DNA of 64,000 nucleotides from Microbulbifer sp. YPW1. Its GTDB lineage: Bacteria; Pseudomonadota; Gammaproteobacteria; Pseudomonadales; Cellvibrionaceae. Position 1 is the stretch's first letter. Each line of letters opens with the position of its first letter. The notes beneath the pieces are model-generated. The model was given only the letters and a program-made list of their open reading frames with translations. It did not search any database and was not told the DNA's origin. The position numbers and the translations under genes are program-made. Positions 4,627 to 34,012 of the stretch are shown here, piece by piece. The stretch covers positions 310,001 to 374,000 of the forward strand of contig NZ_CP055157.1 in the NCBI RefSeq assembly GCF_013367775.1, written 5' to 3'.

Positions 4627-4740
4627 GGTGGCGATAGCGGGAACAGCTTTGCGAGACCTTCACCGCCATGGATGGCGGTGCAGAGCCCCCATGGATGGGT
4701 TTACGGCGTGTCTCGCAAAGCTGTTCGCGGTAGCGCCACC
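4627..4740 (+). repeat. Long inverted-repeat element, copy 1 (ANGGAN-loop family)
   Basis: Outer arms 4627-4657 and 4710-4740 are 31 nt each with 28 complementary positions. Between them are two hairpins with the same hexaloop ATGGAT: a 7-bp stem (CACCGCC / GGCGGTG, 4661-4680) and a short CCC / GGG stem (4688-4699). The predicted fold is a three-way junction. The loops start 23 nt apart. The core after the second loop, GGGTTTACGGCGTGTC, is shared with other copies while the outer arms differ. It lies between gluQ and cbrX. Confidence 0.85.
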
Positions 4741-4873
4741 GCCACTGCGCTTCGATCAGGACCGGCACCAGTAGAACCAGCAAAGAGTTGAACTCTCCCC
4801 CAAGCGCGCATTAACATTTTGCGCCGAATTTCTCCCTTTCTGCCTCACCGCAGGACGACCCTACAGGTCCTTA

Positions 4874-5050
4874 ATGAGCAACCGTACCCTGTTAATCCTG
4901 CTGGTACTGGTGGGCTATGTATTCAGCCCCACCGTATTCACCTGGATGATCAACCCATCCGGCGCCTGGTATCGCCCCTTCATCCTCTGGTTCGTACTGA
5001 TCCTGCTGGCGATCTTTATTCAGCGGAGGCGCAAACCCGATGACCTTTGA
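4874..5050 (+). CDS. cbrX: CbrX-like small membrane protein
   Basis: A 58-residue protein with two hydrophobic segments (about 5-24 and 36-51) and a basic tail ending RRRKPDDL. It starts with ATG at 4874 and stops at 5048-5050, overlapping the cbrA start (5040) by 11 bases. In Pseudomonas a similarly small protein, CbrX, precedes cbrA and its translation is reported to be coupled to that of CbrA. Position, size, two-helix topology and overlap all fit. I assign the name by synteny and architecture, not by alignment. Its biochemical function is unknown. Confidence 0.75.
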   Translation: MSNRTLLILLVLVGYVFSPTVFTWMINPSGAWYRPFILWFVLILLAIFIQRRRKPDDL

Positions 5051-8036
5051 GATCGTCAACATTGCGCTGATCGGCGTCGCCTATATTTTTGCCCTGTTTT
5101 TCGTGGCCTTCGCCACCTCCAAGGGCTGGCTGTCCAGCAACTGGGTAAGACACCCGTTCTTCTACGTGCTCTCACTGGGCGTCTCCCTCAGCGCCTGGAC
5201 CTACTACGGCATCATCGACCTCGCCTGGCAACACGGCTACGGGGTACTCGCCTACTACCTCGGCACCGGCGCCATGTTCCTGTTCGCACCGGTGGCCCTG
5301 GAACCGCTCGCGCGCCTCGCCCAGCGCTACCAGCTCACCTCCCCCGCAGACCTGCTGGTATTCCGCTACCACAGCCGCGAGGCGGGCACCCTGGCCACCC
5401 TGTTCATGCTGCTGGGACTGCTGCCACTGATCGCACTGCAGATCCAGGCCGTAGCGGAAACCCTGGCACTGCTATCCCGCGACAATGTGGCGGCACTGGC
5501 ACTGCCCGCCAGCGGCGTCACCAGCAAAGACCTGATCGCCTTCTTGTACTGTGTGCTGCTCGCGCTGTTTACCAGCACCTATGGTGCATCCGGTAAACGG
5601 CGCGCCGGCCTCGCCAGCGCCATGGCCCTGGAATCCCTGGTAAAACTGGTGGCCCTGCTGGCGGTGGGGCTGTACGCGGTATACGGCGTGTTCGGCGGAC
5701 TCGGCGAGCTCGATCAGTGGCTCGCGCAGAACAACGACATGCAGCAACTGCTCTACTCCCCGATCAAACAGGGTTCTTCTCACACCCTGCTGCTCGTGTT
5801 TATCGCCACCGCGGTCGCAATGCCGCATATTTTTTATCTCAGTATTGCGGATCGCCCCGCCACCCAGGGGCTGCGCACTGCCAGCTGGGGCTTCCCCCTG
5901 TTCCTGCTGCTGATGGCGTTACCCATCTTCCCCATCATGTGGGCGGGCTTTGCCCTGGATGTGGCGGAACCCGTGCAGTACTTCACCCTTGCGGTGCCCC
6001 GCGCCAGCGGCTCGGCAACCCTGACCATCCTCGCCTTTATCGGCGGCCTGTCCGCGGCTACCGGCGCGCTGATCATGATCACCCTGGCGCTGTCCACCAT
6101 GGTGATGAACCACTGGTTGCTGCCGGGTACCCGCTGGCAGTCCGACGACAACATGTATCGCCAGCTTCTGTGGCTGCGCCGGGCGCTGGTCGCAGCGCTG
6201 TTTCTCGCGGGCTTCGGCTTCTACCTGCTGCTCAACAATCGCCTGTCCCTCTCCGACCTGGCCATCATCGCGTTTATCGCCTCGCTGCAGTTCCTGCCTG
6301 GCATCTTCGCGGTAATTCACTGGCCTCAGGGCAATCGCCGCGGCTTTATCGGCGGACTGCTGGCGGGCATGCTGATCTGGGCCGCGGGCCTGCTGTTCCC
6401 CGCCATGGTGGGCAACAGCGGCATTGCGTTCGGCAGCTACCGGATTCCCCTGGGCATGGAAATCTGGCCGCAGATCACCACCCTGTCACTGTCAGTCAAC
6501 GTGCTGCTGTTCGTGTGTCTGTCGATATTCACCCGCGCCAGCAGCCTGGAGCGCTACGCCGCGGACCTGTGCAGTGACGACTCCATCAGCCAGGCGCTGC
6601 GCCTGGAGCTGGATGTGCAATCCGCCGCCGAATTCCGTATGCGCCTGTCCGAGAGCCTCGGTGCCGCCACCGCAAGCCAGGAAGTCAGCCGCGCCCTGCG
6701 ACAGCTCAACCTGCCGGAGAACGAGCGGCGGCCGTACGCCCTGCGCCAGCTGCGCGACAAGCTGGAGGCCAACCTGTCCGGTCTGCTGGGGCGGGTGCTG
6801 GCAGGGCAGATTGTGGATCGGCACCTGCCGTTCGTTACCAGCGATCAGCCGGCCAACAAAGACATCAACCTGATTGAAACCCGCCTGAGCCGGTACAAAA
6901 ACCAGCTGACCGGTCTCGCCGCGGAACTGAACAACCTGCGTCTCTATCATCGGCAGATGCTGGAAGAGCTACCCATGGCCGCCTGCTCCCTCGGGCGCGA
7001 TGGCGAGATCCTGCTGTGGAACTACGCCATGACCGACCTTACCGGGGTCAGCGCCAGTGAGGTTATCGGTTCCAAACCGGAGTACCTGCCGGAACCCTGG
7101 CGATCCCTGGTCACCGAATTTGCCGAATCCGCCGATGGCAGTCGTTTCAAGCAACAGGTGGAGATGGATGGCAGCAGCCGCTGGCTCAACCTGCACAAGA
7201 CACGCCTCAAGCAGCGCACGGGAAAATACGGACGAGAAAATAAAGAAAGCGGTAAAGAAAACCGCAGTGACGGCCAGATGCTGCTGGTGGAAGACATCAC
7301 CGAGACCCAGGTGCTCGAGCAGGAGCTGATGCACAGCGAACGCCTGGCCTCGGTAGGCCGCCTGGCCGCCGGCGTCGCCCACGAGGTAGGCAATCCGGTT
7401 ACCGGCATCGCCTGTCTCGCGCAGAACCTGCAGTTTGACTCCGACAATCCCGAGGTCCTCGAGACCGCGGACCAGATCCTGAGCCAGACCCAGCGAATCA
7501 GCCGTATCGTCCACTCCCTGGTGAGCTTCTCCCACAGCGGCAACCAGGAAAGCGAAAAGGCCCCGGTAGACCTGCACGCCTGTGTGGAAGAAGCGGTACA
7601 GCTCCTGTCCCTGCAGCGAGACAAGACCGAGGTCACCTTCGCCAATCGGGTACCCGAGGATCTCTACGCGCTGGGGGACAACCAGCGACTGATTCAGGTG
7701 TTCATCAATCTGCTCAGCAACGCCCGCGATGCCAGTCCGGATGGCGGCAACATCGAAGTAGAGGGTTACATTCGTGCGGGGCTCGCCTGTATCGCGGTCA
7801 CCGATGACGGACCGGGTATATCCCCCGCTCACCGCGAGCGAATCCTCGAGCCGTTCTTCACCACCAAGGAACCCGGGGAAGGCACCGGCCTGGGGCTGGC
7901 AATGGTCTACAGCATCGTGGAGGAGCACGGCGGACAACTGGAACTGGTGAGTCCCGCCCACCCGGAAACCGGACGCGGCGCGCGATTTATCGTGCAATTG
8001 CCACTGGAAAGCACCGAGAATGGGGCGATCTCGTGA
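5040..8036 (+). CDS. cbrA: CbrA sensor histidine kinase with SLC5 transporter-like domain
   Basis: 998 residues. The N-terminal ~500 residues form a 12-13 helix sodium:solute symporter (SLC5)-like membrane domain, followed by a linker/STAC region (about 510-640), a PAS domain (about 640-750) and a kinase core. The phospho-accepting His781 is in GVAHEVGNP; the ATPase has NLLSNARDA, DDGPGIS and GTGLGLAM. CbrA controls carbon/nitrogen catabolism through CbrB and, in Pseudomonas, histidine use and catabolite repression. A polar low-complexity insert rich in Lys, Asn and Glu sits at about 731-748 between the PAS domain and the kinase. It overlaps cbrX by 11 bases, suggesting coupled translation. 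cbrB follows after 127 bases. Confidence 0.93.
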   Translation: MTFEIVNIALIGVAYIFALFFVAFATSKGWLSSNWVRHPFFYVLSLGVSLSAWTYYGIIDLAWQHGYGVLAYYLGTGAMFLFAPVALEPLARLAQRYQLTSPADLLVFRYHSREAGTLATLFMLLGLLPLIALQIQAVAETLALLSRDNVAALALPASGVTSKDLIAFLYCVLLALFTSTYGASGKRRAGLASAMALESLVKLVALLAVGLYAVYGVFGGLGELDQWLAQNNDMQQLLYSPIKQGSSHTLLLVFIATAVAMPHIFYLSIADRPATQGLRTASWGFPLFLLLMALPIFPIMWAGFALDVAEPVQYFTLAVPRASGSATLTILAFIGGLSAATGALIMITLALSTMVMNHWLLPGTRWQSDDNMYRQLLWLRRALVAALFLAGFGFYLLLNNRLSLSDLAIIAFIASLQFLPGIFAVIHWPQGNRRGFIGGLLAGMLIWAAGLLFPAMVGNSGIAFGSYRIPLGMEIWPQITTLSLSVNVLLFVCLSIFTRASSLERYAADLCSDDSISQALRLELDVQSAAEFRMRLSESLGAATASQEVSRALRQLNLPENERRPYALRQLRDKLEANLSGLLGRVLAGQIVDRHLPFVTSDQPANKDINLIETRLSRYKNQLTGLAAELNNLRLYHRQMLEELPMAACSLGRDGEILLWNYAMTDLTGVSASEVIGSKPEYLPEPWRSLVTEFAESADGSRFKQQVEMDGSSRWLNLHKTRLKQRTGKYGRENKESGKENRSDGQMLLVEDITETQVLEQELMHSERLASVGRLAAGVAHEVGNPVTGIACLAQNLQFDSDNPEVLETADQILSQTQRISRIVHSLVSFSHSGNQESEKAPVDLHACVEEAVQLLSLQRDKTEVTFANRVPEDLYALGDNQRLIQVFINLLSNARDASPDGGNIEVEGYIRAGLACIAVTDDGPGISPAHRERILEPFFTTKEPGEGTGLGLAMVYSIVEEHGGQLELVSPAHPETGRGARFIVQLPLESTENGAIS

Positions 8037-8146
8037 TCTGCCTGTTACCAGCAGACAGCGAATTTGAACATTTTTCAGCCAGATCGGGCTATTTGGGTTG
8101 CATAGAAACGCCCAAAAGGTAAAACTTAGCCTCCCCTGAACAATTT

Positions 8147-8162
8147 GTAACCAGGCGTAACA
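8147..8162 (+). promoter_or_regulatory. Directly repeated GTAAC boxes upstream of cbrB
   Basis: GTAAC at 8147-8151 and GTAACA at 8157-8162 occur 10 bases apart immediately before the cbrB ATG. The same half-site recurs upstream of the CrcZ-like promoter. This could mean autoregulation by CbrB, but the match is short. Confidence 0.25.
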
Positions 8163-8163
8163 C

Positions 8164-9561
8164 ATGAGCCACATCCTGATCGTAGAAGATGAAGCCATTA
8201 TCCGTACAGCACTGCGCAAGCTGCTGGAGAGGCACCGCTACAAGATCAGTGAAGCCGGCTCAGTTCGAGAAGCGACCACCAAGTTTCGCATCACGGACAT
8301 GGACCTGATTATTTCCGACCTGCGCCTGCCCGGCGCTCCCGGCACCGATCTGCTGAAACTTGCTGGTGACGTACCGGTACTGATCATGACCAGCTATGCG
8401 AGCCTGCGCTCCGCGGTGGATTCCATGCGTATGGGCGCGGCGGACTACATCGCCAAACCCTTTGATCACGACGAGATGCTGGCCACCGTGCGCCGGGTAA
8501 TCGGCAAGGCGGAGCAGAATCGTGCCGCCGGTGCCGCCGCCGCAGACAGCAAGGCCGAAGGTCGCGCCATTGCGGGCATGATCGGCGACAGCCCGGTCAT
8601 GCGCGATCTTTATGCGCGTATCCACAAGGTGGCCCCCACCGACGCCACTGTACTGGTACACGGCGAGACCGGCACCGGTAAGGAACTGGTGGCGCGAGCG
8701 ATTCACGAAGAGAGTAAACGCAACGGCAAGCCCCTGATCTCGGTGAACTGTGCGGCGATTCCCGAAACCCTGATTGAAGCGGAACTCTTTGGTCACGAAA
8801 AAGGCGCCTTTACCGGTGCCCAGACCGCCCGCGAGGGCCTGATTGCCGCCGCCGATGGCGGCACCCTGTTCCTGGATGAGATCGGCGAACTGCCCCTGGA
8901 AGCCCAGGCGCGACTGCTGCGGGTCCTGCAGGAGGGCGAAGTACGGCCCATCGGCGCCATCGAATCCCGCAAGGTTAACGTACGGCTGGTTGCGGCAACC
9001 CACAGGAACCTCCGCCAGCTATCCGCCGAGCGCAAGTTCCGGGAAGACCTTTATTACCGTATCAATGTGGTCCAGATGACCCTGCCGCCCCTGCGCGAGC
9101 GCGGCAAGGATGTGCTGTCCATCTCCGAAAGCCTGCTGAAGAAGTTCTGCGGCAAGATCAACCGCCCTATTTTGAAACTGTCACCGGAGGCGGTCCAGGC
9201 GGTAACAACCTACACCTGGCCGGGCAATGTGCGCGAACTGGAGAACGCTATCCAGCGCGCGGTGATTCTCACCGAGGACAGTGACGAGATCGACCATCGC
9301 ACCCTGGATATCGACCTGGACCTGGTCCCCATAGAGGAAGCCGATCCAGAGCGTCGTCCGCGCAGTAACAGCCTGCACGCCGATCCCCGCGAAGACCTGT
9401 CACTGGAAGATTACTTTGCCCGCTTCGTCCTCGAACACCAGGAAACCATGAGCGAGACCGAGTTGGCCAAGAAGCTGGGTGTGAGCCGAAAATGCCTGTG
9501 GGAGCGCCGCCAGAAGCTCGGCATCCCGCGCAAGAAGGCCAAGCGCGTCGCCGAAGCCTGA
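8164..9561 (+). CDS. cbrB: CbrB NtrC-family sigma-54 response regulator
   Basis: 465 residues: receiver domain (1-120, phosphoacceptor Asp52 in ISDLRLPG), AAA+ sigma-54 activation domain (about 140-375) and Fis-type helix-turn-helix (about 420-460). The Walker A motif is GETGTGKE, the sigma-54 contact loop is intact (GAFTGA), and the Walker B-like LFLDEIGE is present. It should activate -24/-12 promoters when phosphorylated by CbrA. Such a promoter, with GTAACA-type inverted repeats upstream, lies 420 bp downstream of its stop. A Rho-independent terminator follows within 20 bases. Confidence 0.94.
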   Translation: MSHILIVEDEAIIRTALRKLLERHRYKISEAGSVREATTKFRITDMDLIISDLRLPGAPGTDLLKLAGDVPVLIMTSYASLRSAVDSMRMGAADYIAKPFDHDEMLATVRRVIGKAEQNRAAGAAAADSKAEGRAIAGMIGDSPVMRDLYARIHKVAPTDATVLVHGETGTGKELVARAIHEESKRNGKPLISVNCAAIPETLIEAELFGHEKGAFTGAQTAREGLIAAADGGTLFLDEIGELPLEAQARLLRVLQEGEVRPIGAIESRKVNVRLVAATHRNLRQLSAERKFREDLYYRINVVQMTLPPLRERGKDVLSISESLLKKFCGKINRPILKLSPEAVQAVTTYTWPGNVRELENAIQRAVILTEDSDEIDHRTLDIDLDLVPIEEADPERRPRSNSLHADPREDLSLEDYFARFVLEHQETMSETELAKKLGVSRKCLWERRQKLGIPRKKAKRVAEA

Positions 9562-9578
9562 CCCCACGCCGAAATCTC

Positions 9579-9618
9579 AAAAAAAAGCCCGGACAGTAAC
9601 CGCTGCCCGGGCTTTTTT
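9579..9618 (+). terminator. Rho-independent terminator of cbrB
   Basis: GCCCGG pairs with CCGGGC, extended by CAG/CTG across one mismatch, followed by six T residues at 9613-9618 and preceded by an A-run. It starts about 17 bases after the cbrB stop and separates cbrB from the downstream RNA locus. Confidence 0.88.
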
Positions 9619-9847
9619 ATGTCCGGCACTGCCGCCCCCGCCAGACCGGCCCCTACCGCGCCCAGCACAAGCACCCGACAGGGCTTTTCGGCAAGGTAAC
9701 GACACGCGGGTAGCGCCGCCCCACAAGGTTCCCACATTCCGTCACCGCCCCACGGGAAAGCAAAAATCCATTGAAAATCAACAGCTTGCATTGACATCCG
9801 GGGGTCGAAAGGTGACCTGATGTGCGTGAGCACCGGAGCGGAAATTG

Positions 9848-9908
9848 GTAACAAGTGAAAGTGTTACCCCCTCTCACAGTGGAGTAACAACTGCCGCGCT
9901 ATGCGTAA
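9848..9908 (+). promoter_or_regulatory. Putative CbrB upstream activator sites
   Basis: GTAACA at 9848-9853, TGTTAC at 9862-9867, GTAACA at 9884-9889 and GTAAC at 9904-9908. The middle two form an inverted repeat with a 16-base spacer. The Pseudomonas CbrB site, as I recall it, is TGTTAC and GTAACA about 14 bases apart, so the spacing is close but not identical. The sites are about 100-135 bp upstream of a -24/-12 promoter, the normal distance for a sigma-54 activator. An AT-rich stretch (9934-9980) that could allow bending lies between them. Confidence 0.6.
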
Positions 9909-9983
9909 CGGAAATCTGTATTTACACGACACAAAAAAGTTCCTCAAAAAGTTAACTTATTGATTTTTAAGAACTTTTTAAAG

Positions 9984-10000
9984 TTGGCACGCTATCTGCT
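9984..10000 (+). promoter_or_regulatory. Sigma-54 (-24/-12) promoter of the CrcZ-like RNA
   Basis: TTGGCACGCTATCTGCT: the invariant GG (9986-9987) and GC (9998-9999) are exactly 10 bases apart, and TGGCACG matches the -24 consensus fully. Transcription would begin near 10011. Confidence 0.85.
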
Positions 10001-10010
10001 TTGTATAGGT

Positions 10011-10425
10011 CAAACAACAAGAACAGCCAAGAATAAAAATAAATGACTGTTTAAGCCCTAATAACAACTGACAATAAGTGGGCGCAACACAATAAGAATA
10101 ATGAGAACGGGCAGATCGACAATAAAAACCAAAGTGATCGATGCCGGAGCAAAAATTGAGCAATAAAAATAATAAGGCTCAGAACAACAATAAAAATAAA
10201 CAAAAAGTACTAAAAATAACGACTAATAATAAAAATAAACAATAAGAATAAAGAGAAATAACAAAAACAATAACTTGTAGAAGACAACAAAAATAACGAC
10301 AAGCACGTGACAAACTGACTGATTGTGCCTGGGAAAGGGTTTGCTGAAAAGCAAATTGATAGCGCAAGGATGCCGCTGCCTTCATACCAAATAAGAATAA
10401 TTCCCTTCTTTTCTTTGTTTTATTC
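10011..10425 (+). ncRNA. crcZ: CrcZ-like Hfq/Crc-sequestering small RNA (3' end approximate)
   Basis: No credible ORF. From the predicted start at about 10011, the transcript contains at least ten A-rich clusters of the AANAANAA type, for example AACAACAA (10013), AAGAATAA (10029), AATAACAA (10060), AATAAGAA (10091) and long runs at 10183-10206, 10225-10253 and 10256-10273; a last one is at 10390. This is the pattern by which Pseudomonas CrcZ binds Hfq with Crc to relieve catabolite repression. Location between cbrB and pcnB and a sigma-54 promoter behind putative CbrB sites match the Pseudomonas locus. A TTTGCT / AGCAAA hairpin with GAAA loop (10340-10355) and a T-rich tract (10401-10425) are candidate 3' features, but I see no textbook terminator, so the end is uncertain. 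Identification rests on synteny and motif density. Confidence 0.75.
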
Positions 10426-10596
10426 AATGTATGCACACCGTTTGCTGGCCCCCGCAAGGAGCGGGACCGGCAGCTGTGCATTGCTGTGTGTTAGAATCCG
10501 CCTCCACAATAGTCCGGAATCACGTCCTCTCGGTGCGCCCCCGGATCAACACAGCGGCCCAATGACAATCGGGCTGCGGATAACACAGTAAGCCGT

Positions 10597-12069
10597 ATGT
10601 TCAATTCCCTGATCAGCAGTATCAAACGCTGGCACAGCAAGCCCAAAGCCACAGACAAGGCATCCGCCAGTGAAGCCAGCTCCGGCGGGGGCAAGCCGCC
10701 GCAAAAGCGGGGCCGCAAATCGCGCCCCAGCCCGAGTAGATCCCGGGTCGTCGTTCCCCGCAGCGATCACAACCTTTCGCGACGGGACGTCAGCCGTGCA
10801 GCACTCACGGTCATGAAGCGCCTGCAGGAAGCCGGGTTCGAGGCCTATATTGTGGGCGGCGGTGTACGCGACCTGCTACTGGGTGGCCACCCCAAAGATT
10901 TTGACGTCGCCACCGACGCCACTCCGGAACAGGCCAAGCAGCTGTTCCGCGGCGCCCGTATCGTCGGCCGTCGCTTCCGCATCCTGCACGCCCGCATTGG
11001 CCGCGAGGTCATTGAGGTCACCACCTTCCGCGGCCACCACAGTGATGGCGAGGCCCATGAAGCCCAGCAATCCGAGCACGGCATGCTGCTGCGGGACAAC
11101 GTCTACGGCGACCTGGAAAGTGATGCAGTGCGTCGCGACTTCACCGTCAACGCGCTCTACTACACCACCAACGGGTTCGAAATCCACGACTACACCGGCG
11201 GCATCGAAGATATCGAGCAGCGCCGGATCCGGATGATCGGCGACCCGGAGACCCGCTACAAAGAAGACCCGGTGCGCATGTTGCGCGCGGTGCGCTTTGC
11301 CGCCAAGCTGGACTTCGATATCGAGCCCGCCACGGCCGCACCACTCGAGGAGCTGGCGCCGCTGCTGCGCAACATTGCCCCCGCGCGCCTGTTTGACGAG
11401 GTGCTCAAGCTACTGATGAGCGGCCACGGTGTGCGCACCTTCGAACTGATGTGCGAGCACCACCTGTGGCCGCACCTGTTCCCGGACAATGCCAGCCAGC
11501 TGGATAACCCGGAGGCCCTCGCCCTTACCCGTTTGGCCCTGCGCAACACCGACCAGCGGATTCGCAACGACCAGCGGGTAACCCCGGCCTTCCTGTATGC
11601 AGCGTTGCTGTGGCCAGCGGTGAATTCCGAGCAAAAGTTCCTGATCGACAAAGGCATCCCGCCGGTACCGGCGCTGGCCCAGGCCGCACAGAAGATCACC
11701 AGTAACCAGCTGGTGCACACCGCTGTTCCCAAACGCTTCTCCATGCCAATGCGGGAAATCTGGGACATGCAGTCCCGCCTGCCCCGCCGCGGTGGCGAGC
11801 GCGCCTTCCGCCTGATGGAAATGCCGCGTTTCCGCGCCGCTTACGACTTCCTGTTGCTGCGTGAGGAAAGTGGCGAGATCCCCGCGGGACTCGGCCAATG
11901 GTGGACCGACTTCCAGCAGGCCGACGAAGAGCTGCGTCAAAAGATGGTCCAGGATGTTCCGCGCAACGGTCCGCGCGGAGGCAAAGGCCGCGGGCGACGC
12001 AATCGCAGCGGGCGCAACCGGAACCGCAACAAGCGCCCAAACAACGGTGCGGAACACCCATCAAATTGA
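10597..12069 (+). CDS. pcnB: Poly(A) polymerase I
   Basis: 490 residues. Adds 3' poly(A) tails to RNA and so promotes decay. The class II nucleotidyltransferase signature is clear: VGGGVRDLLLG near 85-95 and the catalytic DFDVATD near 100-106. RNA-binding motifs such as RRDFTVNALYY and the neck/body region follow. The N-terminal ~55 residues and the last ~35 residues are strongly basic (Arg/Asn/Gly-rich tail), typical of PcnB and likely RNA contacts. It starts the pcnB-folK-kinase-panB run. Confidence 0.95.
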   Translation: MFNSLISSIKRWHSKPKATDKASASEASSGGGKPPQKRGRKSRPSPSRSRVVVPRSDHNLSRRDVSRAALTVMKRLQEAGFEAYIVGGGVRDLLLGGHPKDFDVATDATPEQAKQLFRGARIVGRRFRILHARIGREVIEVTTFRGHHSDGEAHEAQQSEHGMLLRDNVYGDLESDAVRRDFTVNALYYTTNGFEIHDYTGGIEDIEQRRIRMIGDPETRYKEDPVRMLRAVRFAAKLDFDIEPATAAPLEELAPLLRNIAPARLFDEVLKLLMSGHGVRTFELMCEHHLWPHLFPDNASQLDNPEALALTRLALRNTDQRIRNDQRVTPAFLYAALLWPAVNSEQKFLIDKGIPPVPALAQAAQKITSNQLVHTAVPKRFSMPMREIWDMQSRLPRRGGERAFRLMEMPRFRAAYDFLLLREESGEIPAGLGQWWTDFQQADEELRQKMVQDVPRNGPRGGKGRGRRNRSGRNRNRNKRPNNGAEHPSN

Positions 12070-12082
12070 GCGGAATTCACAA

Positions 12083-12559: not shown

Positions 12560-12586
12560 TCAGGGAAAAGAAAAGGAGTATCCCCG

Positions 12587-23756: not shown

Positions 23757-23770
23757 AGTACTATCAAGAA

Positions 23771-25868: not shown

Positions 25869-26726
25869 TTATCGCAACAGCAGCAGCGGCTGGTTGGTAC
25901 CCAGCAACATTTTTGCGGTCACGCTTCCCAGCAACAGATCGCGTAATTTGCTGTGACTGAAAGCGCCCATTACCGTCAGATCGATCTCGTGCTCCTGCTG
26001 GTAGGCAATCAGTGCCTCCACCGTCTTGCCCCGCAGATTCGCACTGGTCACCGAAACCCCACCGTGACTCAACGCCTCCGCGCCCTCGGCAAGCACCGAC
26101 TCGGCACCGTCTCCCACGTAAACCAGGTGACACTCTGTCTCTTTCAGCAGCGGACTGGTCGCCACCATATCCAGCGCCTTGCGCGCGGCCTCACTGCCGT
26201 CGTAGGCAAGCATGATCGAACGCGGCGCCTTGAACTCCCGGTTTACCACCAGAATCGGCTTGTGCAGGGAACGCACCACTGACTCCAGCTGCGCCCCCAG
26301 ACCGCGATCCGCCTCACCGTGCTCCTCCCCGCGAATCCCCAGCACCAGAACCCGGATATGATCCTCCAGCTCCACCAGAGACTCGATCAGGCTGCCGTGG
26401 CGCTGGCAGGTAACCACCCGCTCCGCCCCGGCACCAAGCGCGCGCTCCCGCGCCCCCTCCAGCATCTGCCGCCCCTGCTCCAGCAACAGCTTCGAGCGCT
26501 GCTGCTCCAGGGTAGTCAGCTCCTCCAGCAGCTCCTCCTGGCTACCCAGACCAATACTGCCGCTCAGGTCCGCCACTGCTGGTGTGGAGACGCGTTCGAT
26601 ATTGTGCAGAAGTTTGATGGGGGCGCCGGTGCGGCTGGCAATCCAGGCGGCGTAATCACACACCGCGCCGGTGTAGTGGGATCCGTCGATGCAGGCAAGT
26701 ACTAGGGGATCTTTTTGTTCGGTCAT
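25869..26726 (-). CDS. Tandem universal stress protein (UspE-like)
   Basis: 285 residues made of two Usp domains: 1-145 (LACIDGSHYTGAVCDYAA start) and 150-285 (IMLAYDGSEAARKALD start). The second ends with a nucleotide-loop-like GAFSHSKLRDLLLGSVT, close to the ATP-binding pattern; the first is more degenerate. It lies downstream of the SulP transporter gene on the same strand with a palindromic element between; sulP-usp pairs are common. Its role in stress or transport regulation is inferred. Confidence 0.85.
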   Translation of the reverse strand: MTEQKDPLVLACIDGSHYTGAVCDYAAWIASRTGAPIKLLHNIERVSTPAVADLSGSIGLGSQEELLEELTTLEQQRSKLLLEQGRQMLEGARERALGAGAERVVTCQRHGSLIESLVELEDHIRVLVLGIRGEEHGEADRGLGAQLESVVRSLHKPILVVNREFKAPRSIMLAYDGSEAARKALDMVATSPLLKETECHLVYVGDGAESVLAEGAEALSHGGVSVTSANLRGKTVEALIAYQQEHEIDLTVMGAFSHSKLRDLLLGSVTAKMLLGTNQPLLLLR

Positions 26727-26809
26727 TTATTATTTTCTCTCTGTCGCTATCCAACTTAATAAACTACGAAGCGAGGTGCTTGCTTACGGAGTGAAGGGAT
26801 CAGGGAGAA

Positions 26810-26975
26810 GCCGAAATGCTGGGTGGAAGTTTTTGAAACCGTCGGCGACACGGAAGTCGCCGCCGGAACCCGATACGACCGCCATGGATGGCGGAAGTGC
26901 AGAAAATGCATGGATGCAATTTTCTGCCAGGGATGTACTTGTGCGCTTTCAAAAACTTCCGCCCAGTGTTTCGGC
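26810..26975 (+). repeat. Long inverted-repeat element, copy 2 (ANGGAN-loop family)
   Basis: Arms 26810-26838 and 26947-26975 (29 nt, 26 Watson-Crick; the other three positions are G-U wobbles if read as plus-strand RNA). Inside: GGCGAC / GTCGCC with loop ACGGAA (26844-26861), CCGCC / GGCGG with loop ATGGAT (26879-26894), an 11-bp stem with one bulge and loop ATGGAT (26899-26927), then AGGGAT at 26929-26934. The element points opposite to both flanking genes, which are on the minus strand. Confidence 0.75.
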
Positions 26976-27017
26976 GCCAATGGAGCCAAAACAGAGCTCC
27001 TGACCGAAGCTCCGGGC

Positions 27018-28526
27018 TTAGTGCCCCCCGAGTACCTTCTCAATCTCTTCCGGCTTATCGTGCACACCAAAGCGGTCGACGATAGTGGAGCTGGCCTCGT
27101 TCAGGCCAATCAGCTCTACCTCTGCGCCCTCGCGGCGGAACTTCACCACCGCCTTGTCCAGCGAGTACACCGCCGACACATCCCAGAAGTGCGCGCGACT
27201 CAGGTCGATCACCACCTTGTCCAGCGCCTCCTTGAAATCAAACGCCGCTACGAATTTGTCCGCTGAGTTGAAGAACACCTGCCCCACAACCTTGTAAGTC
27301 CGGCAATTCTGCTCCTCATCCAGCTCCGAGCTCACATACATAAAGTGGCTCACCTTGTTGGCGAAGAACAGGGAAGCCAGCAGCACCCCCACAAACACGC
27401 CAAACGCCAGATTATGGGTAAACACTACCACAATCACGGTGGACAGCATCACCAGATTGGTCGACAGCGGCAGCTTCTTCAGATTGCGGATAGAGCCCCA
27501 GTCGAAGGTACCGATGGACACCATGATCATCACTGCCACCAGCGCCGCCATCGGAATCACCGCCACCCAGTCACTCAGGAACACCACCAGAGTCAGCAGG
27601 CCGACACCGGCCACCAGTGTGGACAGACGGCCACGGCCACCGGATTTCACGTTAATCACCGACTGGCCGATCATCGCACAGCCCGCCATACCGCCCAGCA
27701 TGCCGGCGCCGATATTGGCAATGCCCTGGCCCTTACACTCGCGGTTCTTGTCGCTGTTGGTGTCGGTCAGGTCGTCCACGATGGTGGCGGTCATCAGGGA
27801 TTCCAGCAGGCCCACCACAGCGAGGCCAGCGGAGTAAGGGAAGATGATCTTCAGGGTTTCAAAGTTGAGCGGCACATCTGGCCACAGGAAGATCGGCAGG
27901 GTGTCCGGCAGGTCGCCCATATCGCCCACGGTGCGGATATCCAGGCCCATCACCACGGCGACTGCGGTCAGCACCAGGATACAGACCAGCGGAGACGGCA
28001 GAATCTTGCCCACGACGGGAACGTAGGGGAACAGGTAGATGATACCGAGGCCGGCGGCGGTCATGGCGTAGACATGCCAGGTGACGTCGGTGAGTTCAGG
28101 CAGCTGCGCCATAAAGATGAGGATGGCCAGCGCGTTCACAAACCCCGTGACCACGGCCCTGGAGACGAAGCTCATCAGGCTGCCGAGCTTGAGGTAGCCA
28201 GCAATGATCTGCAGCACCCCGGTCAGCAACGTGGCGGCCAACAGGTATTGCAGCCCGTGCTCTTTGACCAGCGTAACCATGAGCAGTGCCATGGCACCGG
28301 TGGCGGCGGAGATCATACCGGGGCGGCCACCGACGAAGGCGATGACCACGGCGATACAGAAAGAGGCGTACAGGCCCACCCGCGGGTCGACGCCGGCGAT
28401 GATGGAGAAGGCGATGGCCTCGGGAATCAGGGCCAGGGCCACGACGAGACCAGCGAGTACATCGCGGCGGATATTGCCGAACCAGTCATTCCTGGTGGAC
28501 GACAACAGGGTGTTGGAGAACTGCAT
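27018..28526 (-). CDS. SulP-family anion transporter with STAS domain
   Basis: 502 residues from the ATG at 28526 (MQFSNTLL); the longer frame overlaps a repeat element and is rejected. About 10-12 membrane segments (30-390), with the SulP start [20 protein letters not shown], then a C-terminal cytoplasmic STAS domain (about 400-495, [13 protein letters not shown]). Substrate could be sulfate, bicarbonate or another anion; this subgroup resembles bicarbonate-type SulP proteins, but I cannot settle it. Followed by usp on the same strand. Confidence 0.87.
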
Positions 28527-28688
28527 AATCAGATGAGCCTGTCTGGGAAGTCTTATTGATTGCTGAATTTTTCTGACGGATTGGCTGTGACACGGACGTG
28601 CCGAAAGCCTGGAAAAATGGGCGCGGATTCTAGCATGGCCGGGGTTTTGACTAAAGAACGCACAAAGCCTTAAAGCAAGTCCGGTGGC

Positions 28689-28803
28689 GGTGCCGCTGCC
28701 GACTACGGCTTTGCGACACACGCCGTGCACCCATCCCTGGGGGCTCGAATGCGGCCATCCAGGCCGCATACAGTCTCGCAAAGCCGTAGCCGGCACCGGC
28801 ACC
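28689..28803 (-). repeat. Long inverted-repeat element, copy 3 (ANGGAN-loop family)
   Basis: Arms 28689-28716 and 28776-28803 (28 nt, 26 complementary). The conserved core is on the minus strand. Inner hairpins there: an 8-bp stem ATGCGGCC / GGCCGCAT with loop TGGAT (28749-28769) and CCC / GGG with loop AGGGAT (28730-28741). The core GAGCCCCCAGGGATGGGT is shared with copies 1 and 4. The element is in the same orientation as sulP, upstream of it. Confidence 0.82.
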
Positions 28804-28865
28804 TTCACAATTCCCTTTCGCGACGCCCCATCATTTCACCTCCATAAGGCGCCAAAATTCACACC

Positions 28866-28911
28866 TGTCCGCATTAGCGGACACGACCTGTCCGGACACA
28901 TTTTCCGGACA
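28866..28911 (+). promoter_or_regulatory. Upstream activator sites of the export operon
   Basis: TGTCCG at 28866 and CGGACA at 28878 form an 18-bp inverted repeat; TGTCCGGACA is at 28889-28898; another TCCGGACA is at 28904-28911. They are 75-120 bp upstream of a -24/-12 promoter, the usual place for an NtrC-type activator, most likely the regulator encoded at the end of this operon. Confidence 0.7.
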
Positions 28912-28985
28912 CCCCGCCGCCATCCAGAAAAACGCTTAAATTTAAATTCCCCTTAATTTTCAAACACTTATATGGCAGATCAGTG

Positions 28986-29002
28986 TTGGCACGGCGATTG
29001 CG
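28986..29002 (+). promoter_or_regulatory. Sigma-54 promoter of the export operon
   Basis: TTGGCACGGCGATTGCG: GG (28988-28989) and GC (29000-29001) exactly 10 apart, TTGGCACG and TTGC both consensus. Predicted start near 29013, giving a leader of about 94 bases before the adaptor gene. Confidence 0.9.
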
Positions 29003-29106
29003 ATAAGGCCGTTGCATCCAAAAATTTAACTGTGCATCCGCGGCGAGAAATGCCCGCGTCACAGTGACAGAACAAGACAAACTGATTCGAAGCATTTGGG
29101 AACAAC

Positions 29107-30387
29107 ATGATCAGAGATACCTCCGGGCAGGACATCCAACTCACCCCGCGGAGCCCGTGGAAGAACCCGCGCCTGTTGAAGCGCGCAGCCCTCGGCCTCG
29201 GCGCGGCGGCTTTTGTGGTTTGGGGGCTGGTGAGCTGGCAGAGCACCAACGCGGTAGACGCAAGCCTGTCGCTGTCGCGGATCAATATCGCGGCGGTGGA
29301 GCGCGGGAATCTGATCCGCGACCTGGTCGTCCAGGGCAAGGTGGTGGCGGCCAACAGCCCTACCCTGTTCAGCCCCGCCCAGGGCATCGTCAAATTTGCG
29401 GTTAAGGCCGGTGATGCGGTGGAGAAAGGTCAGCTGCTGGCGGAAGTGGACAGCCCGGAATTGCAAAACCAGCTCGCCCAGGAAAGCGCACTGTATAACA
29501 AGTTGAGCGTGGAACTGGCCCGGCAAAAGATCCAGGCCAAGCGCCAGCGTCTGGAAAATACCCAGAAAGCCGATCTGGCCAAGGTAGACCTGGTCGCAGC
29601 CGAGCGCGAGCTGAAGCGCGCAGAGCTGTCCATGGAGAAACAGATCATTTCCCAGCTGGACTTCGAAAAAGCCAGCGACGACCTCGCCCGCGCCAAGCTC
29701 GAATACAAGCAGGCAGTACAGAACTCCCAGCTGGAAAACGAAGCCCTCACCTTCGAGACTCAGACCCTGCAACTGCAGGTTGACCAACAGCAACTCCAGG
29801 TAGAAGAGCTGCAGCGCAAGGTCAATGAACTGCAGATCGTCTCTCCCGTCGACGGCACCATCGGCAGCCTCGCCGCCACCCAGCGCTCCGCTGTTGCGGC
29901 CAATGCGCCACTCTTGACCGTCGTCGACCTCACCAGCTTCGAACTGGAAGCCGCGGTGCCAGAAAACTACGCCGATGACCTGGGCCTGGCGATGGACGTG
30001 GTAATCAATATGGGCGGCAAAAAACTGCCCGGTGAAATCACAGCAATTGCTCCCGAAGTCATCGACAACCAGGTCACCGCCCGCGTCCGCTTTACCGAAG
30101 GGCAACCCGCGAATTTACGCCAGAACCTGCGACTCACCGCGCGCATCCTGCTGGAAAACCGCAGCGACGTGATCCTGGTGAAACGCGGTGCGTTCCTGGA
30201 TCAGACCGGCGGTCGCTTTGCCTGGAAGCTGAACGACCAGCAGCAGGCCGTCAAAGTACCGATCACCATCGGTGCACTGGGACTGAATCAGGTGGAAATT
30301 GTTTCCGGCCTGAACGAAGGCGACCGGATTATTACTTCTTCCGCGGAAGAGCTGCACAAGGCGCAGCTGGTTGCGCTGAAAGATTAG
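29107..30387 (+). CDS. MacA/HlyD-type periplasmic adaptor of an ABC exporter
   Basis: 426 residues. One N-terminal membrane anchor (about 28-46), then a split lipoyl/barrel-sandwich half, a long coiled-coil hairpin (about 110-245, many Gln/Glu/Leu heptads), the second lipoyl half (IVSPVDGTIGSL), a beta-barrel and a membrane-proximal domain. It bridges an inner-membrane ABC transporter to an outer-membrane channel; no channel gene is adjacent, so a shared TolC is presumed. First gene of a six-gene operon behind a sigma-54 promoter. Followed by an inverted-repeat element before the ATPase gene. Confidence 0.9.
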   Translation: MIRDTSGQDIQLTPRSPWKNPRLLKRAALGLGAAAFVVWGLVSWQSTNAVDASLSLSRINIAAVERGNLIRDLVVQGKVVAANSPTLFSPAQGIVKFAVKAGDAVEKGQLLAEVDSPELQNQLAQESALYNKLSVELARQKIQAKRQRLENTQKADLAKVDLVAAERELKRAELSMEKQIISQLDFEKASDDLARAKLEYKQAVQNSQLENEALTFETQTLQLQVDQQQLQVEELQRKVNELQIVSPVDGTIGSLAATQRSAVAANAPLLTVVDLTSFELEAAVPENYADDLGLAMDVVINMGGKKLPGEITAIAPEVIDNQVTARVRFTEGQPANLRQNLRLTARILLENRSDVILVKRGAFLDQTGGRFAWKLNDQQQAVKVPITIGALGLNQVEIVSGLNEGDRIITSSAEELHKAQLVALKD

Positions 30388-30413
30388 AAAAGAACTGAAA
30401 ATTTCAATGAGAA

Positions 30414-30525
30414 GGCGCTGATGCCGGGACTCGGTTGCGGGACTGTCGAAAAGAGGGACCTTTTCGACAAGCCCCCAGGGATGGGTTCACGGCGTGTCCC
30501 GCAACCGAGTCCCGGCAGCAGCGCC
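30414..30525 (+). repeat. Long inverted-repeat element, copy 4 (ANGGAN-loop family)
   Basis: Arms 30414-30443 and 30496-30525 (30 nt, 29 complementary). First inner hairpin is a 9-bp stem (GTCGAAAAG / CTTTTCGAC, 30445-30468) with loop AGGGAC; second is CCC / GGG with loop AGGGAT (30474-30485). Loops start 23 nt apart. It lies within the export operon between the adaptor and ATPase genes. Confidence 0.88.
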
Positions 30526-30582
30526 GCCACAAGAATCGAAAGAATTTCAATATCGCCAAATAAAACGACAAGGAAATCCATC

Positions 30583-31284
30583 ATGCTGAAAATGCAGAAC
30601 ATCCGTAAAAGCTACCGTACAGATACCATCGAAACCCACGCGTTGCGGGATTTCAGCCTTGAAGTGAACGAAGGAGAGTTCGTATCTGTCACCGGTCCCA
30701 GTGGCTCCGGTAAAACCACCTTTTTGAATATTGCAGGCCTGCTGGAAACTCCCACCGGTGGAGAATACCTCCTCGACGGACAGGAAGTCGGCGGCCTCTC
30801 CGACCGCGATCGCTCGCGCATGCGCAACGAAAAAATTGGCTTTATTTTCCAGGGCTTCAACCTGATTCCCGATCTCAACCTATTCGACAACATCGACGTC
30901 CCCCTGCGCTACCGCGGCTTCAACGCCAAAGAACGCCGTCGTCGCATCGAAAAATCCCTCGAACAGGTCGGCCTCTCCGCCCGCGCCAAACACCTGCCCG
31001 CACAACTGTCCGGCGGTCAGCAACAGCGCGTCGCCATCGCCCGTGCACTGGCCGGCGAACCCCGCTTCCTGCTCGCGGACGAACCCACCGGTAACCTCGA
31101 CTCCCTCATGGCCCGCCAGGTCATGGAACTGCTCGAATTCATCAACGAATGGGGCACCACCATCATCATGGTCACCCACGACCCGGATCTCGCGCGCCGC
31201 GCGCAGCGCAATATCCAGATCGTCGACGGCCAGGTATCCGACCTGCGCCAGAGTATCGCGCAAGAAGAAATCGCCACCGCATAA
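30583..31284 (+). CDS. ABC transporter ATP-binding protein (MacB/LolD type)
   Basis: 233 residues from the ATG at 30583 with an AAGGA ribosome binding site; the longer frame runs through the inverted repeat and is not coding. Walker A is GPSGSGKTT, the Q-loop is FIFQGFNL, the signature is LSGGQQQR, Walker B is RFLLADEP, and the switch His is VTHD. This is the stand-alone ATPase class that pairs with MacB/FtsX-like permeases, two of which follow. Confidence 0.95.
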   Translation: MLKMQNIRKSYRTDTIETHALRDFSLEVNEGEFVSVTGPSGSGKTTFLNIAGLLETPTGGEYLLDGQEVGGLSDRDRSRMRNEKIGFIFQGFNLIPDLNLFDNIDVPLRYRGFNAKERRRRIEKSLEQVGLSARAKHLPAQLSGGQQQRVAIARALAGEPRFLLADEPTGNLDSLMARQVMELLEFINEWGTTIIMVTHDPDLARRAQRNIQIVDGQVSDLRQSIAQEEIATA

Positions 31285-31323
31285 GCTGACCGCGTATTCG
31301 TTGAAAAAGAAAAGGACACCGAA

Positions 31324-32652
31324 ATGATCGGCTACTACATCAGCCTCGCCTTGCGCAGCCTGCGGGGCACCCCCATATTGAGCGCGCTCATGGTCGCCGC
31401 CATCGCCGTCGGCGTCGGCGCATCCATGACCGTACTCACGCTCAACTACATGATGTCCCAGAACGCCCTGGCACATAAGGACGACGTACTCTACGCCGTA
31501 CAGCTGGACAGCTGGGATCCGAACGACGCTTACAACCGTGGCGGCCGCGGAAATGAAATGCCCTGGCAGCTCACATACCGGGATGCAGAAGCACTGCTGC
31601 GCTCGGATATTCCCACCCGACAGGTGGCCATGCACCGCTTCGGCTTCACCGTTACCCTGGAAGACTCCGAAGTACGGCCGTTTGTCGCCGAAACACGGGT
31701 CACCACCCGCGACTTCTTCTCCATGTTCGACGTGCCCATGCTGTACGGCAACATCTGGAACGAAGATGCAGATACCTCACCGGTACAAACCGTTGTCCTG
31801 AACAAGGCCCTCAACGAAAAACTGTTCGGTGGTGAAGACAGTGTCGGCAAAACCGTAGAGCTCAACGGCGAGCCCTTCACCGTCGCAGGCGTTATCGATT
31901 ACTGGAACCCCTCTCCCAAGGTGTACGACCTGAACAACAGCCCGTTCAGCGATTCGGAGGAGCTTTACATTCCATTCGGCCTGCATCGCAAATTTGAAAT
32001 CTATAGCTGGGGTAACACCAACGGCTGGAACAGCCCGGATCCCGGAGTCGACGGCTTCGAAGGACACCTGCTCAGTGAAAGCGTTTGGATCCAGTATTGG
32101 GTAGAGCTCGACAACGACACGCAAAAACAGGACTACGAAAATTTCCTGACCGGCTACATCCAGCAGCAAAAAGAACAGGGCCGCTTCCAACGCCCGCTCA
32201 AATTCGGCCTTACCCATCCCTCGGAATGGCTGGTATTGAATGAAGTACTGCGCGACGACAACCGCGTTCTGGGATGGGCATCCCTGGCCTTCCTGCTGGT
32301 GTGTGTCGTGAACGCTGTGGCACTACTGCTGGCCAAATTCCTGCGCAAGGCACCGGAAGCCGGTGTCCGCCGCGCACTGGGTGCCAGCCGCAATGCGATT
32401 TTCCTCCAGCACCTGATCGAAAGCAGCTGCATCGGCGTGCTGGGTGGCCTGATCGGTATTGGCTTCGCGCTGCTAGGTTTGTCCGGTATCCGCATGCTGT
32501 CCATGGGCCAGATCGACCAGATCGCCTCCATGGACTGGCTGATGATGCTCTCCGCCGTTGGCCTCGCCATACTGGCCAGCCTGCTCGCCGGCCTGTATCC
32601 CGCATGGCGTATCAGCCGAACCAACCCATCTGTCTACTTGAAAACCCAATAA
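31324..32652 (+). CDS. MacB/FtsX-type ABC permease, first of two
   Basis: 442 residues. One N-terminal membrane helix (about 18-40), a large periplasmic MacB core domain (45-315) and three C-terminal helices (about 320-345, 370-395, 405-430) ending in the PAWRISRTNP segment typical of FtsX permeases. The motif ALGASRNAIFLQHLIES between helices is the usual ATPase-coupling region. It forms a heterodimer, most likely, with the next gene product. Gap to the ATPase gene 39 bases. Confidence 0.9.
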   Translation: MIGYYISLALRSLRGTPILSALMVAAIAVGVGASMTVLTLNYMMSQNALAHKDDVLYAVQLDSWDPNDAYNRGGRGNEMPWQLTYRDAEALLRSDIPTRQVAMHRFGFTVTLEDSEVRPFVAETRVTTRDFFSMFDVPMLYGNIWNEDADTSPVQTVVLNKALNEKLFGGEDSVGKTVELNGEPFTVAGVIDYWNPSPKVYDLNNSPFSDSEELYIPFGLHRKFEIYSWGNTNGWNSPDPGVDGFEGHLLSESVWIQYWVELDNDTQKQDYENFLTGYIQQQKEQGRFQRPLKFGLTHPSEWLVLNEVLRDDNRVLGWASLAFLLVCVVNAVALLLAKFLRKAPEAGVRRALGASRNAIFLQHLIESSCIGVLGGLIGIGFALLGLSGIRMLSMGQIDQIASMDWLMMLSAVGLAILASLLAGLYPAWRISRTNPSVYLKTQ

Positions 32653-32670
32653 GCCGGAGAGGAAACGACC

Positions 32671-33879
32671 ATGTTTGAATTGAAACCCATGTTGTCCGCC
32701 CTCTGGCGCAACAAAGTGTCGGCAATGCTGATCGCACTGCAACTGGCCCTGACCCTGGCCATCGTCAGCAATGCCACCGTCATCGTAAAGGACCGCCTCA
32801 CCAGTATGGCGCGTCCAACCGGCATGGATGTGGAAAACATCATCGCCATCACCTTTATGCCCGTGCCAAAAGATTACGATATGGCGGGCGCAGTACGCGC
32901 CGACCTCGACATGATGCGCTCCATGCCCGGCGTGGTGGATGCCACGGTCACCAACCAGATCCCGGTATCCGGATCCGGTTCCGCCAGTAGTTTTTATCTC
33001 AAGCCCAATGCCCAGGTGGGAGACGTGGACGGCAACTACTACCAGACCGATCCGCACTTTATTAACACCCTGGGGCTCAACCTCATCGCCGGACGTAACT
33101 TTCGCGACGATGAAATGCACGTGATCGGCTCCAATGAAAACTTCATCGGTAGTGTCATTATTGTTACCCAGCAATTCGCCGATGCCGCCTTCCCCGAGGG
33201 CGACGCCCTGGGCAAATTCCTGTATCACGGCAATAAAGACAATCCCATGGAAATCATTGGTATTGTCGAGCGACACCTGGGTGCATGGCCCACCTGGTCA
33301 TTGGCCGGCAATGTGGTATTCCACCCGCTACTGGTAGAAGGCAACCACAAACGCTATCTGGTCCGCGCCGAACCCGGCCAGCGCGATGCCATTTTCAAAC
33401 AACTGGAAGACAAACTCGCAGAGCGGGATCCACAGCGGGTCATCCACCTGGAAACCCTGTCCGAAAACCTCGCCTCGAGCTATGTAAGCGATAACATCAT
33501 GGTCAAGGTATTGTCCGCGGTAATGACCATGCTGACGTTTATCGTTGCCCTGGGCATCGTCGGTCTCACCATTTTCTGGATCAACCAGCGCGCCAAGCAG
33601 ATCGGCATCCGCCGCGCACTGGGAGCGACCCGTGCCAATATCAGTCGCTACTTCCTGGTGGAAAATTCCTTGATCGCGGGTACCGGGCTGGTACTGGGGA
33701 CTGCGGGAGCGCTGATCATCAATCAGTTGATGGTCAGTGAATTTTCACAACCCGCGCTATCACTAACCATACTTACCGTGTGTGCGATACTATTGCTCGC
33801 AGTCAGCCTTGCGGCGGCCCTGATGCCCGCCATGCGCGCTGCGAATATATCGCCGGCGATGGCAACACGAAGCGTTTAA
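32671..33879 (+). CDS. MacB/FtsX-type ABC permease, second of two
   Basis: 402 residues, same topology as the preceding permease: N-terminal helix (about 15-35), periplasmic domain (40-275) and three C-terminal helices, with the coupling motif RRALGATRANISRYFL. It is clearly diverged from the first. Eighteen bases separate the two genes. Two different permeases with one ATPase suggest an asymmetric exporter; the substrate (peptide, antibiotic or lipid) is not evident. Confidence 0.9.
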   Translation: MFELKPMLSALWRNKVSAMLIALQLALTLAIVSNATVIVKDRLTSMARPTGMDVENIIAITFMPVPKDYDMAGAVRADLDMMRSMPGVVDATVTNQIPVSGSGSASSFYLKPNAQVGDVDGNYYQTDPHFINTLGLNLIAGRNFRDDEMHVIGSNENFIGSVIIVTQQFADAAFPEGDALGKFLYHGNKDNPMEIIGIVERHLGAWPTWSLAGNVVFHPLLVEGNHKRYLVRAEPGQRDAIFKQLEDKLAERDPQRVIHLETLSENLASSYVSDNIMVKVLSAVMTMLTFIVALGIVGLTIFWINQRAKQIGIRRALGATRANISRYFLVENSLIAGTGLVLGTAGALIINQLMVSEFSQPALSLTILTVCAILLLAVSLAAALMPAMRAANISPAMATRSV

Positions 33880-33900
33880 AAGCCGATTGCTCAAAGCGAA

Positions 33901-34012
33901 GGTCCTGCGCCCGATACGGGTTTGCGGGACCGTCGAAAAGAGGGACCTTTTCGACAAGCTGCCATGGATGGGTTCACTGTGAGTCCTGCAAACCTCTATC
34001 GGGTGCAGGACC
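33901..34012 (+). repeat. Long inverted-repeat element, copy 5 (ANGGAN-loop family)
   Basis: Arms 33901-33930 and 33983-34012 (30 nt, 26 Watson-Crick plus three G-U wobbles on the plus strand). The first inner hairpin (33932-33955) is identical to that in copy 4, loop AGGGAC; the second loop is ATGGAT (33964-33969). Loops start 23 nt apart. It lies inside the export operon between the second permease and the regulator genes. Confidence 0.87.

Follow-up and report, generated by a model that had tools for sequence, protein, structure and literature searches.

Within a 64,000-nucleotide stretch of the Microbulbifer sp. YPW1 genome (the window; positions 310001-374000 of a 4.58 Mb single contig), five palindromes with GGA-bearing hairpin loops belong to a dispersed family of ~125-bp palindromic repeats, with at least 119 distinct copies in this genome and relatives in other genera. 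The members of this family share a common shape, have covarying stems, persist at orthologous sites, are present in some species and absent from others at a given site, and are subject to a constraint that is specific to one strand, which we designate the core strand. We give about an even chance to the reading that these are dispersed, non-autonomous palindromes akin to the ERIC/RU elements or to miniature inverted-repeat transposable elements (MITEs), with an own single strand that must fold and with loops of the type bound by CsrA.

A dispersed palindrome family with GGA hairpin loops

The core strand reads, in order, GCGAAGG, a variable 5' arm, a stem end such as TTGYGRGAC, hairpin A, hairpin B, a 3' arm and CCGCCACNGAAC, with an outer stem of ~31 bp enclosing a three-way junction with the two hairpins. 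Hairpin A displays many stem sequences around a loop of A(N)GGAY or NGGAY, and hairpin B is GCC-CCC-ANGGAT-GGG-TTYAC-GGC; a second subtype carries GTACAGGGATGTA at the place of hairpin B, and a variant has an added hairpin, GGGGGGCGCCTAGCYCG, replacing TTCAC(A/G)GCG (e.g. at 131224-131372, 2063558-2063704 and 4458059-4458206 of the YPW1 genome). Two orthologous copies differ chiefly by this added hairpin. The unit is bounded, the flanks being barely conserved outside GCGAAGG and CCGCCAC(NGAAC), and the polarity of its ends is canonical in 86 of the 119 YPW1 copies, unclear by score in 33 and clearly swapped in none.

Folding of the 119 copies yielded two GGA hairpin loops in 94, three in 2, one in 18 and none in 5, vs. 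opposite-strand folds of the same copies with no GGA hairpin loop in 117 and one in 2. The loop words in this genome were AGGGAT (99), AGGGAC (44), ATGGAT (44), ATGGAC (7), ACGGAT (4), AAGGAC (2) and AAGGAT (1), with at least two ANGGAY words in 79 of the 119 copies and the N position free. GGA loops prevail in these folds and word counts, so that the non-random loops of the five palindromes extend to the whole genome, and the spacing of 23 or 24 nt between loops, as noticed in the window, recurs as the distance from first to last GGA word in 52 of the 119 copies by a crude word count. The loops, being A(N)GGA in hairpins with variable stems as in CsrA/RsmA-binding RNAs, also agree with the published CsrA/RsmA consensus as given in PMC4347634, in line with the first-pass annotation of this DNA, which had likened them to CsrA/RsmA recognition elements.

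The number of copies was assessed in several ways. With blastn against the YPW1 genome, copy 1 of the window gave 43 matches and copy 4 gave 44. An alignment of 50 copies from this genome, from which three chance coding matches and one composite copy had been dropped, was the source of a first covariance model; at E 0.01, with the best 150 of 1593 candidates scored, it returned 134 matches, which after removal of 15 opposite-strand duplicates left the 119 copies, these figures being lower bounds. At least one match was found in 24 of 25 Microbulbifer genomes, with counts from 0 to at least 87. A pattern scan, in which each species was represented by a single genome, matched at least 117 stretches, the genera among the matches listed being Xanthomonas, Stenotrophomonas, Marinobacter, Rheinheimera, Methylotuvimicrobium, Saccharospirillum, Oceanisphaera, Erwinia, Moritella and others. 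A second, cross-genus covariance model, built from 78 copies from other genera, gave 9 to 150 matches in 15 of 15 named genomes (opposite-strand duplicates included; the genomes were picked for having a match) and, with stricter filters, at least one match in 45 of 229 genomes sampled from the Gammaproteobacteria. What had been a five-copy observation is, by these models, a genome-wide family with relatives in other genera.

The 78 copies remained after six incomplete or odd loci had been skipped, copies more than 83% alike removed (114 to 89) and 11 of the 89 excluded by eye, among which L108 and L134 at least had no GGA at hairpin A and L074, L079, L107, L119 and L123 had something else there. 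In the aligned set, a GGA-anchored test found GGA at the hairpin A region in 78 of 78 copies, 75 of which had a stem of 3 bp or longer; a cruder hairpin finder placed GGA in a loop in 65 of 75 and found no hairpin in 3. The search pattern for these copies included the GGA of hairpin B and excluded the loop of hairpin A.

The first 2.75 Mb of the genome are about fivefold richer in copies than the remainder (38.5 vs. 7.1 per Mb), with a boundary picked post hoc, and a rough GC skew places the replication origin apparently within the copy-dense part. Among neighboring copies within 1 kb, 22 of 26 pairs lie head-to-head, 17 of these at a spacing of 45-84 bp, as compared with 3 tail-to-tail pairs; the gene settings of the 17 are convergent in 7, co-directional in 8 and divergent in 2. 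Inspection by eye of four of the five gaps between paired copies, those of 454-903 bp, without a family search, revealed no autonomous gene, the open reading frames (ORFs) looking ordinary. A 301-bp stretch containing copy 4 had no match in plasmids, nor did copy 1 have any in phages.

The fold of the core strand is constrained

In the 50-copy alignment, both sides have changed at 34 of 39 base pairs, and paired cells amount to 95.8%, vs. 72.9% after shuffling and no more than 44.2% after sliding. Recognizing that template switching between the arms can yield the same pattern, we do not take compensated arms alone as proof of selection; such switching can homogenize arms and invert the interior between them, as described in PMC8794818 and PMC8604942. 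The type of the mismatches that remain is of help in telling selection on the fold from template switching, because G·U and A·C on a given strand should be equally likely on double-stranded DNA. Counting only mismatches flanked by matches, and excluding 16 copies outside 128-140 nt, we found 69 G·U vs. 8 A·C mismatches on the core strand of 103 of the 119 copies, with G·U over 25 arm positions; a cruder count (237 to 18) was inflated by unpaired stem-end bases and is superseded by this one. The G·U excess on the core strand, as first seen in the five copies, holds genome-wide. Subdivided by gene setting, the G·U to A·C counts were 24:1 for sense, 26:3 for antisense, 13:4 for convergent and 6:0 for divergent copies, and they were 29:2 in three other species and 74:15 in other genera.

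These data indicate that the fold of one strand, the core strand, is constrained. In single-stranded DNA, G·T is favored over A·C as well; the excess of G·U is therefore a sign that a single strand folds rather than a mark of RNA in particular. The earlier proposal of a selected RNA structure is supported in part, in that two outcomes that would have spoken against it, random loops and no excess of G·U on the core strand, are contradicted genome-wide.

Persistence and change at orthologous sites

Comparison of the 119 YPW1 copies with 60 from three relatives yielded 26 cross-species pairs with matching flanks and orientation, and the persistence of such same-site, same-orientation pairs across species indicates that the copies are long-lived. 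Among the base pairs of these 26 pairs, 581 were unchanged, 103 had changed on both sides while staying Watson-Crick and 72 showed other changes; single-side changes numbered 58, with G·U as one of the two states in 42 of them and A·C in 16.

Filled and empty sites were both encountered, as illustrated by the gap before the ABC gene (the site of copy 4), where the element is present in genomes G000, G019, G020, G024, G012 and G021, a GTAG repetitive extragenic palindromic (REP) sequence lies instead in G001 and G015, and the site is empty in other relatives. In one copy, the interior has been inverted in place with arms and flanks largely unchanged (G020 vs. G024; L427 near 8170, L430 near 8750), an inversion between arms being a known outcome of template switching, as described in PMC8604942. 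In addition, one copy of G024 sits within a terminator-like stem that is intact in G020 (L437 near 640). Insertion into terminator stems as a rule was rejected, this being one case only and flank complementarity being at the shuffled level.

Orientation relative to neighboring genes

According to an ORF caller for which the window served as training sequence, 46 of the YPW1 copies are sense to both neighbors, 38 antisense to both, 27 convergent and 7 divergent, with 1 overlapping a call. No sense bias was found in this genome (46 vs. 38, p = 0.45); as close pairs force a balance between sense and antisense, the count was repeated without them, again showing no bias (38 vs. 29, p = 0.33). Nor was a sense bias found in other genera with a cruder caller (15 sense, 27 antisense, 21 convergent and 7 divergent; a further 35 copies overlap an ORF call, and 17 lie at the edge of a contig). 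No significant difference separated sense from antisense copies, whether in bit score (p = 0.07), in energy (p = 0.08) or in mismatches, number of G·U and GGA loops. In co-directional settings of either orientation, 60 of 84 copies are nearer the preceding stop codon and 23 nearer the following start, with median distances of 48 nt to the stop and 79.5 nt to the start.

It is chiefly this unbiased orientation that speaks against a role in the mRNA of neighboring genes. The suggestion of an operon control element is not supported, and an mRNA-borne CsrA control site was rejected as a general explanation, in view of the unbiased orientation and of antisense copies that keep loops, stems and G·U excess to about the same degree.

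Distribution of csrA

A full csrA match was present in 22 of 25 Microbulbifer genomes, with a shortened one in G008. The apparent absence of csrA from the YPW1 genome was dismissed as an artefact, because the expected place is masked, as shown by the neighboring gene, and likewise in G018 and G008. Among the 229 gammaproteobacterial genomes, no association between element and csrA was detectable: csrA was present in 40 of the 45 genomes that have the element and in 153 of the 184 that do not, and some csrA genes may be hidden by masking.

Genes of the csrA family are amplified in G003, G004, G006, G009, G010 and G014, with 5-18 matches over the cut-off. These six genomes carry 1, 1, 67, 2, 6 and 12 palindromes, i.e. 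few in five of the six; a rank test of csrA amplification vs. palindrome count over 22 genomes gave p = 0.009, with the six seemingly mostly from one clade.

Relationship to known repeats and RNAs

We did not find a description of this family in the literature searched, which covers few subscription journals. In Rfam, no family reached threshold on the window copies or in 18 loci from other genera, where three matches were unrelated to the palindromes, and microRNA matches to the palindromes, all below threshold, were set aside as chance matches to long hairpins. The nearest family on the core strand is TwoAYGGAY (RF01731, clan CL00106), with four matches of 25.2, 31.7, 31.5 and 18.1 bits vs. 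a threshold of 43 (E 0.49-4.9), all on copies and on the core strand, from at least 34 copies scanned. Its outer helix carries a pair of hairpins with AYGGAY-type loops, a layout shared by the palindromes and seen in the 94 YPW1 copies that fold with two GGA loops; its hosts include gammaproteobacteria according to PMC2864571, and PMC4333381 describes it as a predicted CsrA ligand. The differences are that the scores fall below threshold and that the TwoAYGGAY descriptions consulted do not mention a dispersed repeat.

On the opposite strand, nine sub-threshold matches to Ysr224 (RF02770) were obtained, with 16.4-35.1 bits vs. a threshold of 70, the best (35.1 bits) having an E value of 0.00026, or 2.2e-6 in a small search. 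All nine lie on copies (8 distinct) and all are opposite to the core strand, with a full-model alignment for one; they include L174 369-475, copies in L078, L113, L183, L185 and L192, and 26836-26959 of the window. The Ysr224 consensus carries the complement of the core, with both GGA hairpins and the TTYAC-GGC piece, but it is catalogued in Rfam as a Yersinia small RNA gene on the other strand. This complementarity, together with matches that are all on the opposite strand, suggests that Ysr224 may be the other strand of a Yersinia member of the family.

In its dispersal, its palindromic unit with defined ends and its occurrence at sites that are filled in some genomes and empty in others, the family resembles ERIC and MITE-type elements. 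With ERIC and RU-1 (a 127-bp enterobacterial repeat) it has in common size, palindromic shape and intergenic dispersal, as described in PMC2759123, but ERIC has TA ends and TA target duplications according to the same source, whereas the ends here are GCGAAGG and CCGCCAC and the conserved part is the inner hairpins with GGA loops. REP sequences are likewise palindromic, intergenic and arranged in pairs of opposite orientation, and in some relatives a GTAG REP sits in the gap that holds copy 4 in YPW1; however, they are given as 20-40 bp in PMC3733652 vs. ~125 bp here, and a Y1 transposase was not detected in two copy-rich genomes. The sponge RNAs CsrB and RsmX/Y/Z likewise contain several CsrA-type GGA sites, as outlined in PMC4347634 and PMC4333381, but they come from genes devoted to regulatory RNA, as opposed to more than 100 dispersed palindromes lacking a sense bias. 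Separately, two REP-like palindromes of the GTAGGAGCCTGC type, at 59993-60053 and 62352-62418 of the window, flank ORFs at 60168-61436 and 61436-62308, neither of which has a Pfam match or was picked by a gene caller using host codons.

The five copies in the window

The covariance model matched exactly five places inside the window, and an inverted-repeat scan, folding and the loop coordinates bear out the five palindromes as first reported. The scan gave arms of 30-36 nt with 86-97% complementarity in four of the five; copy 5 was missing from its list, yet it folds as claimed, with the caveat that its second loop is not a hairpin in the lowest-energy fold. In a gapless 31-nt comparison of the five copies, the 7 G·U mismatches reported for the core strand were recovered along with 1 A·C, while the mismatches totaled 17 instead of 13.

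Copies 1 to 4 were delineated by the inverted-repeat scan and the covariance model, and copy 5 by the covariance model and its fold. Copy 1 (4620-4756, plus strand) has arms at 4627-4657 and 4710-4740 and ATGGAT loops at 4668-4673 and 4691-4696; its neighbors are a class-I tRNA-synthetase-type gene (3722-4588) and a PAS histidine kinase gene (5040-8036). Copy 2 (26803-26991, plus strand; 57 bits) is a longer composite with four GGA words in loops, namely ACGGAA (26850-26855), ATGGAT (26884-26889 and 26910-26915) and AGGGAT (26929-26934), in contrast to the two-loop copies, and it is antisense to both of its neighbors, a universal stress protein gene and a sulfate permease gene on the minus strand. 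Copy 3 (28673-28810), with the core on the minus strand and loops TGGAT (28757-28761) and AGGGAT (28733-28738), lies upstream of the sulfate permease gene. Copy 4 (30407-30541, plus strand), with loops AGGGAC (30454-30459) and AGGGAT (30477-30482), is neighbored by an HlyD-type gene (29107-30387) and the ABC ATPase gene (30583-31284 as called). Copy 5 (33894-34028, plus strand) carries loops AGGGAC (33941-33946) and ATGGAT (33964-33969), and its neighbors are a MacB/FtsX-type gene (32671-33879) and a sigma-54 response regulator gene (34055-35401).

Discussion

In the favored reading, the core strand of each copy adopts a fold made up of a long stem, a three-way junction and twin hairpins whose loops are A(N)GGAY. 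Because antisense copies keep this fold equally, it is probably the element's own strand, and not the mRNA of a neighbor, that must fold; the folding molecule may be single-stranded DNA during spread or upkeep of the element, or RNA made from the core strand. Its likeliest reader would be a candidate protein that handles the folded strand during spread and upkeep, and the arms may owe their lasting complementarity jointly to selection on the fold and to template switching or gene conversion, among copies as well as from arm to arm.

Several observations weigh against this reading. Transversion mismatches in the comparison of G·U with A·C over 103 copies numbered 93, with 57 at two fixed positions, some arm positions being simply unpaired. 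The ortholog pairs partly share loci, so that the change counts are not independent, and replacement of one copy by another at the same site is possible. No target-site duplication was established in the one filled/empty pair read closely. For Y1/RAYT-type transposases, no Y1_Tnp match was obtained at E 0.001 in G012 and G021, with 51 and 45 copies, in a search limited to this enzyme family; a transposase of this type as the mover is unsupported. In addition, a function in place would account for the strong retention at orthologous sites no less well than an old mobile element would.

In a rival reading, transcripts of the core strand would offer two hairpin sites ~23 nt apart that a CsrA dimer might bridge, as a dispersed sponge or for local control, and this is consistent with the typical ANGGAY words with free N (at least two in 79 of 119 copies), the resemblance of the second subtype, GTACAGGGATGTA, to the published RUACARGGAUGU consensus, the GGA at hairpin A in all 78 cross-genus copies, though it was outside the search pattern, the predicted binding of CsrA by TwoAYGGAY as stated in PMC4333381, and the full csrA match in most Microbulbifer genomes. 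Against such a role stand the absence of a sense bias in this genome and in other genera (15 vs. 27), antisense copies about as intact and G·U-biased as sense ones, the undetectable association with csrA over 229 genomes, the low copy numbers in most csrA-amplified genomes, though these are seemingly mostly one clade, and the entry of the Yersinia relative Ysr224 on the opposite strand in 9 of 9 sub-threshold matches; the last point makes it slightly less probable, and overall we consider a CsrA/RsmA-binding RNA to be unlikely. A broader version, to which we assign a slightly lower likelihood still, would be that class-wide, (once-)mobile palindromes carry a twin RNA ligand of the CsrA type as a genome-dispersed mimic of CsrA's own sites, folded on one strand in nearly every copy, with the element either using CsrA in its own life cycle or loading the cell with more than 100 dispersed CsrA sites.

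Another alternative is that these are plain DNA palindromes of the REP/MITE type that lack a strand-specific role and owe their complementary arms solely to template switching. The long near-perfect arms, the dispersal, the in-place inversion of an interior and the 103 double changes vs. 58 single transition-type and 72 other changes are all compatible with it, given that template switching can homogenize arms and invert interiors (PMC8794818 and PMC8604942). But template switching and double-stranded DNA are blind to strand, whereas all groups show more G·U than A·C on the core strand, and the loops remain GGA while the stems vary, so that we deem this explanation quite improbable. Scarcely different in probability is a function at transcript 3' ends, as terminators or mRNA-stabilizing hairpins in either orientation, which would be in keeping with the 60 of 84 co-directional copies nearer the preceding stop (vs. 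23 nearer the next start), with 27 convergent vs. 7 divergent settings, for which no baseline was computed, and with an outer stem that folds in both strands. Against this function, TTTTT occurs near the 3' end in 7% of 179 copies, most being without a T run, and neither the conserved inner loops nor the strand specificity would be explained by it.

Palindromes of this kind are usually seen as debris at the DNA level; here, the fold of one strand is constrained whatever the direction of the neighboring genes, and its reader thereby becomes open to direct testing. The comparison of G·U with A·C mismatches on each strand provides a simple test of constraint on a fold for which expression data are unneeded, while the compensatory changes at orthologous sites and the inverted interior supply natural cases in which selection on shape can be told from template switching. 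A Yersinia small RNA entry may belong to this repeat family, and a first candidate for the reader of the fold is suggested by the conserved GGA loops.

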